Assembly (NCBI RefSeq): GCF_900102875.1
Contig: NZ_FNGH01000003.1
Location: 124,001 to 188,000, forward strand
DNA: 64,000 nt
Source of the DNA: Franzmannia pantelleriensis
GTDB lineage: Bacteria > Pseudomonadota > Gammaproteobacteria > Pseudomonadales > Halomonadaceae
Reading direction: 5' to 3'
Below, one piece after another: positions 17,367-22,800 of this stretch (positions are counted from its first letter, which is position 1; every line of letters starts with the position of its first letter). The notes beneath the pieces are model-generated. The model did not search any database. It was given only the letters and a program-made list of their open reading frames with translations, and was not told the origin of the DNA. The position numbers and the translations under genes were made by a program.

Positions 17367-19868
17367 TCACAACATCCCTAGCCCGCTCACCCTCACAACT
17401 TTCGTCGTCACCGCCTCATCCAGCATCCCGCGTCCCGTCTCCACCAGCGTGAGCCAGTCCCTCGCACGGGTGATGCCGGTGTAGACCAGCTCCCGGGTGA
17501 GGATGGGGTTGGGGGCGTCGGGGAGTAGCAGGGCGGTGTGGGTGAATTCCGAGCCCTGGGATTTGTGTACCGTCATGGCGAAGACGGTTTCCACCGCTTG
17601 CAGGCGGCTGGGTAGCACCCACTTGATGTCGCCGCTGCCGTCGCTGGCGGGGAAGGCAACACGCAGCAGGGTGCGGGCGGGGGTATCGGTGGCGCTGCGG
17701 GCCTCGGGTACGGCGAGGGTGATACCGATATCGCCGTTCATCAGCCCCAGGCCGTAGTCGTTACGGGTGACGAGCACCGGGCGGCCTTCGAACCAGCCTT
17801 GTTCCAGTTCCAGGTCGCTGGCCTTGAGCCAGCCGGCGCGTCGCAGGGCGCGGCCGATGCGCGGGTTCAGCCCTTCGATGCCCCAGGGGCCTTTTCTGAG
17901 CGCACACAGCAGCTGAAAGTGGCCGTGGGCAGCGAGCAACTGGCGGGCCCAGTCGTCATAGGGCTGGCGGGCTTCGCCTTCGCCGAAGTAGGGCTGGGCG
18001 GGGCGCAGTTGCTGCATCACGTTCAGGTAGTGGGCGTAGCCGCGGGGAGGGGCGATGGGCTCGCCGCGGCGGTCGTGGCGGCCTTCGCCGCCGTTGATGA
18101 AGCCTGCCGGGTTGCCGTTTACCACCAGCCGGTCCAGCGCCGGGTCATCGGCGTCTGCCAAGCGTAGCCGGGCGAGGTCGGCATATTCCTGCTGGAACAC
18201 TTGGCTGACCGCGCGTCTTTTCTCTTTTTGCCCATGCTCGGGTGCGAGCGGGCGGTTGACGGCTTCGGCGAGCTGGCCGATGCCGCTCTGCGCATCGAAG
18301 CGGTGGCTCACCCGCAGCATGGCGATGGCCTGATCCAACGGCTGGCCGTCTGCGTCCTGGTACTGCGCGGGGATCGACGTGCCGGTCACGGCTTCCAGCC
18401 ACTCGGTGGTGGCCGGGGTGTAGTGTCCGCCTTCGGCACGCTGACACAGGTCGCCGAGTACGGCGCCGGCTTCCACTGAGGCGAGCTGGTCCTTGTCGCC
18501 GAGCAGGATCAGCCGCGCCTTGGGCGGCAGGGCGGTGAGCACGGCGGCCATCATCTCGATATCCACCATCGAGGCTTCGTCGATCACCAGGGCGTCCAGC
18601 GCCAGCGGGTTGCCGGCGTGGTGGCGGAAGTGGCGGGTATCCGGCCGTGAGCCGAGCAGTCTATGTAGCGTGGTCACCTCGGTGGGAATGCTGTCGCGCA
18701 GGGTCGAGATATCCACACCCTGTTGGCCCACGGCGACGGCCAGTTCCACCAGCGAGAGGTTCTGCACCTGCTTGGCGATGGATTCGTTGAGCCGTGCGGC
18801 GGCTTTGCCGGTGGGGGCGGCCAGGCGGATGCGCAGCGGGCGCGGGGCCTGGTTGGCAGTGGGCTCGCCCAGGGCCAGTGCCTGCAGCAGGGCGAGCAGT
18901 TTGACCACGGTGGTGGTCTTGCCGGTGCCGGGGCCGCCGGTGATCACCGTGAAGTGGGCCTGGGCGGCGAGGGCGCAGGCGGTTTTTTGCCAGTCCAGTT
19001 CGGTGGTGGTGAAGAGGGCGGAGAGGGCGGTGGCCAAGGTGGTGGTATCGGGGCGCCTGGCGGCGCCATCGCGACTGAAGTCGCTCCCACACTGGTTGGT
19101 GGGGCCATCATCGCGACTGAAATCGCTCCCACATTGGTTGGTGGGGGCATCATCGCGACTGAAATCGCTCCCACGCTGGTTGGTGGGGGCATCATCGCGA
19201 CTGAAGTCGCTCCCACACTGGTTGGTGGGGGCATCATCGCGACTGAAGTCGCTCCTACATTGGTTGATGGAGACATTTGGGAGGCGGGCGCCGATCAGTC
19301 CACGGATGTCTTGCTCGTACTGCCAGTAGCGGCGCAGGTAGAGCCGGGTGTTGCCGCTGTGCTCGGTGCGTACCAGCGGGGTGTTGCCTTGGCCATTGCC
19401 GTCGGCGATCAGCAGTGGGTGGTCCAGGGCGGTGCGCCAGGTGGCGAGCTGGAGCTCGGCGAGAACCTCGCTGGGCAGCGGCGGCGGGTCGCTGAGGTCG
19501 TCGCCTTCCGGGGGCAGCGAGAGCGCCAGGTCGGGGGCGGCCAGGGTCTGGGCGAGGTCGAGGCAGACGTGGCCGCGGCCGAGCTGGTGGCTGGCCAGCG
19601 CCGCGGCGAGCAGCAGCAGGGGCGGTGCGTCGTCGACCTCGCGGTGCAGGAATACCGCCAGTGCCCGGTCCAGCGCGCGCAGCCAGCCGCGCTCCACCCA
19701 GCGGTCGAGCAGGGCGGTAAGCGCGGCCACATCGTGCAGCTCGGCGCTGGCGTCTTCGTCCTGAGCGGACGCCTGTACGACCTCCTCGGGACGGGGCGCG
19801 TCGTCAAGCAGACCCCCGAACAGGTCGGGCGTCGGATCGTTGTGAGTGTCCTTGCTGCCTTTGCTCAT
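17367..19868 (-). CDS. recD: Exodeoxyribonuclease V alpha subunit RecD with in-frame repeat insertion
   Basis: The 5'-3' helicase subunit of RecBCD, which resects double-strand breaks and degrades foreign linear DNA. Of 833 residues, Walker A FTVITGGPGTGKTTTV lies near 312, Walker B ALVIDEASMVD follows, and the C-terminal AMTVHKSQGSEF motif is intact. Between the N-terminal domain and the helicase core, residues of about 198-267 are five repeats of a 14-residue unit (NQCGSDFSRDDAPT), encoded by a 42-bp tandem array. The insertion lies in a linker, so function may be kept. The recD start overlaps the recB stop by four bases. Longer than the roughly 610-residue E. coli protein. Confidence 0.9.
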   Translation of the reverse strand: MSKGSKDTHNDPTPDLFGGLLDDAPRPEEVVQASAQDEDASAELHDVAALTALLDRWVERGWLRALDRALAVFLHREVDDAPPLLLLAAALASHQLGRGHVCLDLAQTLAAPDLALSLPPEGDDLSDPPPLPSEVLAELQLATWRTALDHPLLIADGNGQGNTPLVRTEHSGNTRLYLRRYWQYEQDIRGLIGARLPNVSINQCRSDFSRDDAPTNQCGSDFSRDDAPTNQRGSDFSRDDAPTNQCGSDFSRDDGPTNQCGSDFSRDGAARRPDTTTLATALSALFTTTELDWQKTACALAAQAHFTVITGGPGTGKTTTVVKLLALLQALALGEPTANQAPRPLRIRLAAPTGKAAARLNESIAKQVQNLSLVELAVAVGQQGVDISTLRDSIPTEVTTLHRLLGSRPDTRHFRHHAGNPLALDALVIDEASMVDIEMMAAVLTALPPKARLILLGDKDQLASVEAGAVLGDLCQRAEGGHYTPATTEWLEAVTGTSIPAQYQDADGQPLDQAIAMLRVSHRFDAQSGIGQLAEAVNRPLAPEHGQKEKRRAVSQVFQQEYADLARLRLADADDPALDRLVVNGNPAGFINGGEGRHDRRGEPIAPPRGYAHYLNVMQQLRPAQPYFGEGEARQPYDDWARQLLAAHGHFQLLCALRKGPWGIEGLNPRIGRALRRAGWLKASDLELEQGWFEGRPVLVTRNDYGLGLMNGDIGITLAVPEARSATDTPARTLLRVAFPASDGSGDIKWVLPSRLQAVETVFAMTVHKSQGSEFTHTALLLPDAPNPILTRELVYTGITRARDWLTLVETGRGMLDEAVTTKVVRVSGLGML
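19067..19276 (-). repeat. Five tandem 42-bp REP-like units inside recD
   Basis: The hairpin GCGACT-TC-AGTCGC (in coding sense, followed by GCGATGATGCCCCC) recurs with plus-strand starts at 19071, 19113, 19155, 19197 and 19239, an exact 42-base period. Units 2 and 3 have a single change in one arm. Because 42 is a multiple of three and no unit holds a stop, the reading frame of recD continues through all five. Confidence 0.9.
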
Positions 19869-22800
19869 GCCGGCGTCTCCGTGTCAGTCGGCGCCTGGGC
19901 GGCGGCGTGACCCTTGCCCTGGAACAGCGCGTCCATGGCCTCGATCAGCTCGCGGGGCGGGCGCTCAGCGTAGACGCCGCGGCTCTCTGACATTCCGCCC
20001 CTTAAAAAGACGGTAAGCGAGCCGCCGATATGCCGGTCGTAGTCGTAGTCCTGCAGGCGCGCCTTGAGCAGCCGGTGCAGGGCCAGCAGGTAGAGCGCGT
20101 ACTGCAGGTCGTAGCGCTTGGCGGCCACCGCCTGGCGCATGGCATCGGTGCTATAGGCGCTGTCGCCCGGCCCCAGGTGGTTGGATTTCCAGTCGGCCAC
20201 GTAGTAGCGCCCCTGATGCTCGAACACCAGGTCGATGAAGCCCTTGAGCATGCCGTTGAGGGTGTCGGCATCCAGCGCCGCACGCGGCGTGGGGCGGGCG
20301 CCGGGGAGTGTGTAAGCACTTACGAGGGCGTCCAGGCGGCGGGTGTCAACGCGGCTGGCGGCGAACCAGAATTCCATCTCTACCTGGTAGTGGGTCAGCG
20401 TGTCGAGCCGCAGGCTGCCGGCGTCATCGGGGAGCGGCAGCGGCATTCCCAGCAGGGCGCCGAACCAGTCGTGCAGGGTGGGCAGCCACTGCGACCAGCC
20501 GCGCAGGTTGCAGCGCCGCGCCAGGGCGTCCTCGCGGGCCGCGGGGTCGGCGGCGGCGCGGGCGAAGCCCTGTTCGCCGGCCCATTCCATGATGCCGTGG
20601 AGGAAGGTGCCGGGGCCGGGCCCCCTTGGGAACCGATGCAGCGAGGGCAGCGGCTCGCTCTGGCCGCTGTCGCGGGGCTCCTCGAGCACTTCCAGGGCGG
20701 TGGCTTCCATGGCGGTGGCGGGCTCCGGCAGGCCGCTGCTGTCGCTCGGCGGCCCCGCGCTGCCATGCGGGGTAGCCGGTAAGTCAGTCCTTACTGGGGC
20801 GGCCATGCTGTCGGCAGCCAGGGGCTCGGGGGCCTCGCCGGAGAGGCGCAGCGCCGAGTAGCTGGCGATCCACCAGTGCTCGCGGGCGGCGCGCTGGGGC
20901 CTGCGCGCCTCGCCCAGGGCCGGGGCGTCGCTGCCCAGGTCGATGACCTGGGCGTGGGCCTGGGGTGCCGGCTCGATCTGGATGGCTGGGCAGGCCTCGT
21001 GGCCTTCGCCCTTGAGCCGGGACAGCGCCGCGCCGAGGCCAGCTGTGGAAATGGCTTCGCCGTTAGTAAGTACTTGCCCCATGGCACTGCCTTCCAGGCC
21101 CTTGAGGGGCGCCATGCCCAGCCAGGTGGCGTGGCGGGCGCGGGTCAGGGCGACGTAGAGCTTGCGCAGGTCTTCGCCGAGGCGCTCGCGGTCGACCACG
21201 GCGAGCATCTGCTCGTCGGCCTCGAGGCTGATGCGCAGCCGGCCGTCGGCATCGTGCCAGCGCAGCGGGGCGTCGTCGGCCTTGGTGGGGCGGTGGCCGC
21301 AGATGAAGGGCAGGAACACCAGTGGGTACTCCAGGCCCTTGGACTTGTGGATGGTGATCACCTGCACCAGGTCGGCGTCGCTTTCCAGGCGCAGCTTGTG
21401 GGTGTCGCCCTGGCCGTCGGGGTTGGCGATGGACTCTGCCAGGAAGCGGATCAGGGCGTGCTCGCCGTCGAGCTCCTGGCTGGCCTGCTGCAGCAGTTCG
21501 CCGAGATGCAGAAGATCAGTCAGGGAGCGTTCGCCTTCCGAGGCCGGCCCGCCGGCGAGCAGCCGGGTGGCGATAGCGAAGTCGTTGATCAGCCGCCGCA
21601 CCAGCGGCAGTACACCCTGGCGCTGCCACAGGGTGTGGTAGTCGCGAAACTGCATCACCCGGCCTTCCCAGGCCAGTTCATCGGTCTTCAATTGGTCGAG
21701 GTCGGCGATCTCCAGCCCCAGCGCAGGCATGGCCAGGGCGGTGTGCAGCTTGCGGGCGTCGTCGGGCTCGGCGCAGGCGTGCAGCCAGGCCTCCAACTGC
21801 GGGGCGATGGGGGAGGCGAAGACCTTGTCCTTGTCGGAGAGGTAGACGCTCTTCACCCCGCGCCGGGCCAGGGCCTGGCGGATGGCCCGCGCCTCGCCGA
21901 GGCCGTTGACCAGCACCGCCATGTCGGATGGCTTGAGCGGCTGTAGCCCACCCTGTTCATGCTGGAAGCCCGCGCTGCCGTGCTTCCCCTCGTTGAGCAG
22001 TTCGACCATGTGTGAGGCGCAGCGCTCGGCCATGACGCCGTGGTAGGCGGTCTTGGAGAGCGGTTCGTCGCTGTCGAGCTGCCATAGGGTCATGGCGGGC
22101 AGCGGCTGGCCGCGGCGGGTCAGTACGTCCTTGCGGCCCTTGGCGCCTACCGGCAGGAAGGGAACAGGGTTCCCTTCGGGCGACTTGAACAGAAAGGCCC
22201 CCGGCGGGTGACGCTCGGCAAATGCGAAGCAGCGGTTGACCGCCTCGACCATGGCGGTGCTGGAGCGGAAGTTGGTGCCCAGGGTGACATGACGGCCGGC
22301 GGTGTCGCGGCGGGCGCGCAGGTAGGTATGGATGTCGGCGCCGCGGAAGGCGTAGATCGCCTGCTTGGGGTCGCCGATCAGGAAGACGCCGCTCTCGCGG
22401 CGGTTCTCGGCGATGCGGTAGACGCAGTCGAAAATGCGGTACTGCACCGGGTCGGTGTCCTGGAATTCGTCGACCAGGGCGACCGGGAACTGGCGGCGGA
22501 TCTGGGCGCTCAGCGCGTCGCTATTGGGGCCGGCCAGCGCCCGGTCGAGGTGGGTCAGCAGCTCGTTGGGGCCCATCTCGGCGCGGCGCTCCTGCTCGCG
22601 GTCGAGCCGGGTGCGGCACCAGTGCACGGCGTGGGTGAGCAGGTCGGCGTAGGGGCTTGGCAGGGCGTTGAGTTCGTCCTGCAGCGCTTCCAGTGCGGCC
22701 AGCGCCGGGTGGTTGGGCGGCTCGCCCTTGAGCCAGATATCCGCCATACCCTGGGGCGTGAGGCGCTTCCAGGCGGCGTCGGTCAGTGCGGGCCAGGTGG

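Follow-up and report, generated by a model that had tools for sequence, protein, structure and literature searches.

The window analysed here is a 64,000-nucleotide stretch of the salt-loving Franzmannia pantelleriensis (contig NZ_FNGH01000003.1) that carries recD on the minus strand, with recB and recC upstream of it on the same strand. The RecD frame contains 0 internal stops and matched the profile TIGR01447 with 549 bits (cut-off 310, NCBIfam profile search), and an array of hairpins lies in frame between its RecD_N domain (Pfam, residues 59-169) and the SF1 helicase domains that follow. The features of the gene are:

17367..19868, minus strand: recD, exodeoxyribonuclease V alpha subunit, 833 aa, intact frame (TIGR01447, Pfam, Foldseek)
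19067..19270, minus strand: tandem array, five in-frame copies of a 42-bp unit made of a REP and ~20 bp of flanking linker (TRF)
19237..19258, minus strand: REP copy 1 in gene order, GTAGGAGCGACTTCAGTCGCGA (hairpin matches)
19195..19216, minus strand: REP copy 2, GTGGGAGCGACTTCAGTCGCGA (hairpin matches)
19153..19174, minus strand: REP copy 3, GTGGGAGCGATTTCAGTCGCGA, stem wobble (hairpin matches)
19111..19132, minus strand: REP copy 4, GTGGGAGCGATTTCAGTCGCGA, stem wobble (hairpin matches)
19069..19090, minus strand: REP copy 5, GTGGGAGCGACTTCAGTCGCGA (hairpin matches)
19052..19067, minus strand: second hairpin, GGCGCC-GCCA-GGCGCC, after the last REP (belongs to a compound element in relatives)

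TRF analysis of 19067-19270 gave a period of 42 with 4.9 copies, 93% matches and 0% indels, and the copies are spaced by 42, 42, 42 and 42 bp. For the 19-mer GGAGCGACTTCAGTCGCGA the window contains exactly five matches (0-1 mismatch), starting at 19069, 19111, 19153, 19195 and 19237, all of them on the minus strand within the array; 0.04 matches are expected in the shuffled window and no shuffle reached five. The original prediction of five in-frame hairpin copies with an exact 42-base period was thereby borne out by TRF, by the 19-mer matches and by the intact frame. The hairpin had been given as GCGACT-TC-AGTCGC, which is correct as to the palindrome but not as to its exact form: the stem is GCGAC-TTCA-GTCGC, 5 bp with a loop of 4 nt, and two of the five copies read GCGAT-TTCA-GTCGC, where a T-G wobble leaves the encoded Asp unchanged (GAC/GAT). 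The array translates as NQ-C[RG]SDFSRDDAPT-NQ... at RecD residues about 203-267, a repeat peptide with a 14-residue unit (stretch CGSDFSRDDAPTNQ). Directly before the first REP lies ATGTCTCCATCAACCAA, whose resemblance to the inter-copy spacer ATGCCCCCACCAACCAG suggests that duplication of a REP together with its flank, rather than five insertions, built the array. Within the genome and genus of the window, recD alone has the GGCGCC tail hairpin in intact form. Two plus-strand ORFs over the array (18723-19910 and 18493-19329) lie opposite recD, have no domain support and were not accepted as genes. On the plus strand, the array spacers (19067-19270) also contain GTTGGTGG, which resembles the Chi octamer of Haemophilus.

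An AlphaFold2 model of this RecD, obtained from a 44-sequence alignment, had a mean pLDDT of 82.8, with runs below 50 only at residues 1-37 and 200-265. Its best Foldseek matches were the E. coli RecD chains 8b1t_D and 5ld2_D (TM-score 0.83-0.89 by target length). The second of the low-confidence runs corresponds to:

19071..19271, minus strand: codons of residues 200-265, predicted disordered, between helix 179-195 and helix 275-285 (AlphaFold2 pLDDT <50)

In the model the insert is a disordered loop joining the N-domain and the helicase core, and the flanking domains likewise agree with the predicted position of the array in the linker before that core. The window RecD shares its fold and catalytic motifs with E. 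coli RecD (1w36, 5ld2), whereas the region from N-domain to helicase core is short in the E. coli protein and spans about 80 disordered residues here.

The unit of the array is dispersed in the genome. Searching the 4.40-Mb genome for the tagged hairpin with up to 3 mismatches yielded 108 matches, against 0 for the reversed pattern, so that the further copies anticipated elsewhere in the genome were indeed found. A GTRG tetranucleotide stands immediately 5' of the palindrome in GTAGGAGCGACTTCAGTCGCGA and GTGGGAGCGACTTCAGTCGCGA, as in the GTAG class, and the dispersed copies are almost all intergenic, often as opposite-facing pairs. Gene context was scored in sampled stretches around the genome matches for 129 REP-like hairpins: 121 lie outside the interior of any plausible coding ORF, three are near the ends of two doubtful ORFs lacking a family match, and the five recD copies are the only ones that sit well within a clear gene. 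The view that such a unit is normally found between genes therefore holds for this dispersed, largely intergenic REP. Two other ORFs of this genome that apparently contain REPs were not counted as genes (no Pfam or NCBIfam match), nor was one ORF of G014 with an apparent REP (no match, Pfam only). The genome encodes one REP-associated tyrosine transposase (RAYT; NF047646, 140 bits against a cut-off of 80; C18:101483-101893), which is ringed by REPs at positions 101197, 101245, 101352, 101916 and 102006 of contig C18. With its tag, its dispersed copies, their intergenic bias and a RAYT among the REPs, the recD unit is a GTAG-class REP. Like REPINs and RAYT-TnpA-REP systems (PMC8266576), the family has GTAG 5' of the hairpin, an HuH transposase gene among the REPs and opposite-orientation copies elsewhere in the genome; unlike the inverted pair of a REPIN, all five recD copies run head-to-tail in a single orientation, and their mobilisation is putative.

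REPs are strongly clustered on contig C18 (G000; L125-L131), with the RAYT in the same cluster region, and direct repeats of ~100-130 bp in that cluster hold inverted REP pairs. In G008 (L142-L160), G013 and G014, the stems of the REP heads are very diverse within each genome and perfectly paired, with tag, loop and tail constant; hairpin correction or RAYT-level selection could be the cause.

The comparison covered 80 RecD loci of other species and four genomes of the same genus. Within the genus, the unit is present once in Halomonas sp. ML-15, twice at 78-bp spacing in H. socia (G002, CP048812, a complete genome in a single contig), three times in G003 (single contig), about three times in H. 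salipaludis, where the first copy is truncated, and five times in the RecD of the window. All unit spacings in these five RecDs are multiples of 3. GTAG invariably tags the first copy and GTGG the later ones, suggesting an old duplication followed by species-specific expansion. A check of close relatives for absence or other copy numbers of the unit had been suggested; relatives do lack it or have it in other numbers, the variation seen being between species.

In a linker census of 79 RecDs with usable anchors, REPs were present in 25 of the 66 from Halomonadaceae and in 0 of the 13 others. The hairpins at this place are in part unrelated to one another: Billgrantia montanilacus and one MAG have three copies of CRRKLQLTTGADRRPD in the linker, B. 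endophytica has four of CRRTALPHDGADRRPD, and Halomonas, Bisbaumannia, Aidingimonas and Vreelandella have single or double elements. An inverted REP pair, partly duplicated, occupies the linker of Modicisalibacter coralii. The RecD of L059 has an inverted pair from another REP family, and L049, L050, L060 and L064 contain two dissimilar elements each. In several genomes, the recD insert matches the genome's own dispersed REP family. The first 31 bases of the recD element of G012 and its 16-bp tail hairpin recur elsewhere in that genome, and the inserts of G013 (H. campaniensis 5AG) and G014 (H. ramblicola) match dispersed families with dozens of copies, whose architecture GTAGGAG-stem-CGAYT-GGCGCCnnnAGGCGCC is common to the recD inserts. 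Among ~48 dispersed elements examined in the latter two genomes, one lies in a doubtful ORF and the others are intergenic. The same place is thus used in relatives, often by different hairpins, which makes this a recurring pattern rather than a one-off. A protein repeat conserved in distant RecDs, combined with absence of the unit elsewhere in the genome, would have spoken against a REP origin; the repeat peptide is absent from 13/13 RecDs outside Halomonadaceae, and other insert-bearing lineages retain the hairpin architecture with a different peptide; a conserved protein repeat is accordingly rejected.

Mapped on a RecD tree from which the linker had been left out, the state of the insert changes ~16 times; one gain alone entails 23 losses, and the exclusion of loss entails 17 gains. 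These counts are rough, since support is weak at many nodes. Linkers that are empty have a uniform length that matches the outgroups, mostly 38-49 residues from anchor to anchor. Compared across these sequences, repeated gain rather than loss appears to fit best, and an old insert kept in part of Halomonadaceae is possible. One REP might have entered the RecD linker of the Halomonadaceae ancestor, followed by many losses and by homogenisation with the REPs of each genome through gene conversion or hairpin correction, and such a history would account for the strand, frame and near-identical position that are constant across the family, for the conserved head-plus-tail architecture, and for stems that vary and nevertheless pair (99/110 positions, 19 heads). 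It would also suit the restriction to recD of the tail in the window's genus and of the head-plus-tail combination in Vreelandella, which suggests that part of the inserts are of old date or derive from families that have been lost elsewhere. We nonetheless consider a single ancestral insertion unlikely, given the 23 losses, empty linkers that resemble those of outgroups, the dissimilar elements within each of L049, L050, L060 and L064, and the REP pair of another family in L059. Neither a target-site duplication nor a same-species empty site was seen among the RecDs compared. A RAYT above cut-off was present in 17/25 genomes with an occupied linker and 3/26 with an empty one (51 genomes, Fisher p 4.5e-5; L121:1342-1905), but significance was lost under phylogenetic pairing and the association was dropped as evidence.

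In the linker (site 1), 46/46 forward hairpins share the coding strand and a single frame, NGT RGG AGN. Six-frame translation of 13 elements showed that the used frame is stop-free and hydrophilic in each; the remaining frames contain stops, are hydrophobic or close to neutral, or are basic and used less frequently. A further insertion site was found in a loop that is empty in the window:

18672..18788, minus strand: second RecD loop (site 2), residues about 361-399, occupied in relatives by REPs or by another palindromic element

Site 2 contains REPs in eight relatives (L050, L054, L058, L060, L061, L063, L081 and L082) in the frame xxG TGG GAG, unlike that of site 1, and in this frame GTAG would give a TAG stop. 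All eight tags at site 2 are GTGG, compared with 24 GTAG and 21 GTGG at site 1; by our arithmetic, the chance of drawing eight GTGG from the site 1 pool is ~0.005, the eight being not fully independent. That site 2 has GTGG exclusively, in a frame that GTAG would close, is the strongest evidence for filtering of the inserts as coding sequence; together with the frame bias at site 1 it bears indirectly on whether the elements are translated. Site 2, having another frame, would also need an origin of its own if the linker inserts descended from one ancestral event. The recurrent use of the linker across the family and the second site were both missed by the original prediction.

The other palindromic element, CGGAGTTTAC-n-GTAAATGAGCA, is about 110 bp long, dispersed, and present in frame at site 2 of three relatives. 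The window's genome has 6 copies (C11, C21:205066, C23, C24, C35), at least mostly intergenic. It is likewise in frame in two other subunits, RecB (G045) and RecC (G014), whose identity NCBIfam confirmed; the loci are L249 (G045 recB and recD), L248 (G014 recC) and L250 (G035 recD). Three imperfect GTAAGnnCTTAC palindromes in recB of the window (20312, 20783 and 21066; within 770 bp) were considered as an in-frame element and are probably due to chance, the genome count being 4+7 against 7+6 for the reversed control.

We propose, as the probable course of events, that a GTAG-class REP entered the length-tolerant RecD linker, was filtered by frame, expanded in steps of 3n bp and was tolerated, and that this recurred in Halomonadaceae. 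A REP, as a non-autonomous hairpin mobilised by RAYT/TnpA-REP, would have entered the linker that joins the N-terminal domain of RecD to the helicase core, with RAYT as the putative inserting agent. The insert would have been retained because its strand and frame are open and hydrophilic. Expansion of the 42-bp unit, comprising the REP and ~20 bp of flanking linker, would then have proceeded by 3n-bp tandem duplication, probably through slippage or unequal recombination, and the translated 14-residue repeats would form a disordered loop that RecD tolerates. The same linker would have been struck repeatedly by lineage-specific REPs across the family, and the second loop as well. The insert is probably near-neutral, and tolerance is our default reading of the effect of the array on RecBCD; a function is possible, if unsupported. 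The host gene had been described as essential-type, a description that does not hold, recD being non-essential in E. coli.

Selection for the inserts offers another account: the disordered tether might alter coupling between N-domain and helicase, recD translation might be tuned by hairpins in the mRNA, or variation in the loop might allow escape from phage inhibitors of RecBCD. In its favour, RecBCD seems to be almost the only place of clear intragenic insertion in the three genomes sampled, RecD takes inserts in two loops, and relatives have another element in frame in RecB and in RecC. The array also folds better than shuffles (z -3.6 as RNA, -3.7 as DNA), but a strong hairpin fold is expected of any REP array, and a conserved RNA element in the recD mRNA was rejected on that ground. 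The peptide is not conserved between lineages, the linker is empty in many close relatives, and we regard selection as doubtful, even though the repair-gene bias was judged hard to call fortuitous in the main text of Di Nocera, De Gregorio and Rocco (2013; PMC3733652). An assembly artefact or a chance protein repeat is highly improbable: 210 bp of near-identical repeats in a genome of 40 contigs are prone to short-read mis-assembly, but the frame is intact through every copy, the single-contig G003 and H. socia have 3 and 2 copies, and the unit is a genome-wide repeat.

Insertion of this kind is already known, in-frame REPs in repair genes including recBCD having been reported in 2013. According to the main text of PMC3733652, GTAG REPs are mostly intergenic with some in frame in genes, repair genes are over-represented among REP-bearing ORFs (recBCD is named, and altered repair is speculated upon), and recB of two Xanthomonas species has different REPs at about the same place; recD and Halomonas are unnamed there. 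The REPs described here are alike in being GTAG-tagged hairpins, mainly intergenic and some in frame in repair genes. They differ, as far as that text goes, in that several REP families occupy one RecD linker across 25 species-level genomes, in the tandem expansion by 3n, and in a second loop that by its frame is open to GTGG tags only. Rickettsia palindromic elements (RPEs, as presented in the same text) are likewise small palindromic repeats placed in frame within functional genes. The genes that carry RPEs are many and unrelated, whereas the clear in-frame cases in the three Halomonas-type genomes sampled are almost restricted to RecBCD. We found no earlier report of recD with REPs or of Halomonas REPs in the open-access literature, and the recurrent multi-family occupation of the RecD linker, the second site with its tag/frame rule, and the second element in RecB, RecC and RecD are apparently new with respect to the literature searched.

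The Halomonadaceae RecDs provide a clear natural series, from empty linkers to 1, 2, 3 and 5 copies, with several REP families and two sites within a single protein, that bears on whether REP insertions in repair genes are frame-filtered accidents or selected. The tag/frame rule is sequence evidence for the filtering of elements as coding sequence, and RecD, one linker of which is used repeatedly, is well suited to such tests. It is conceivable, though we hold it to be rather improbable, that Halomonadaceae RecBCD is a preferred, selected landing place for unrelated palindromic elements, recruited in one lineage after another as disordered loops that change RecBCD behaviour; if so, helicase coupling, recombination rate or the binding of phage inhibitors would be altered.
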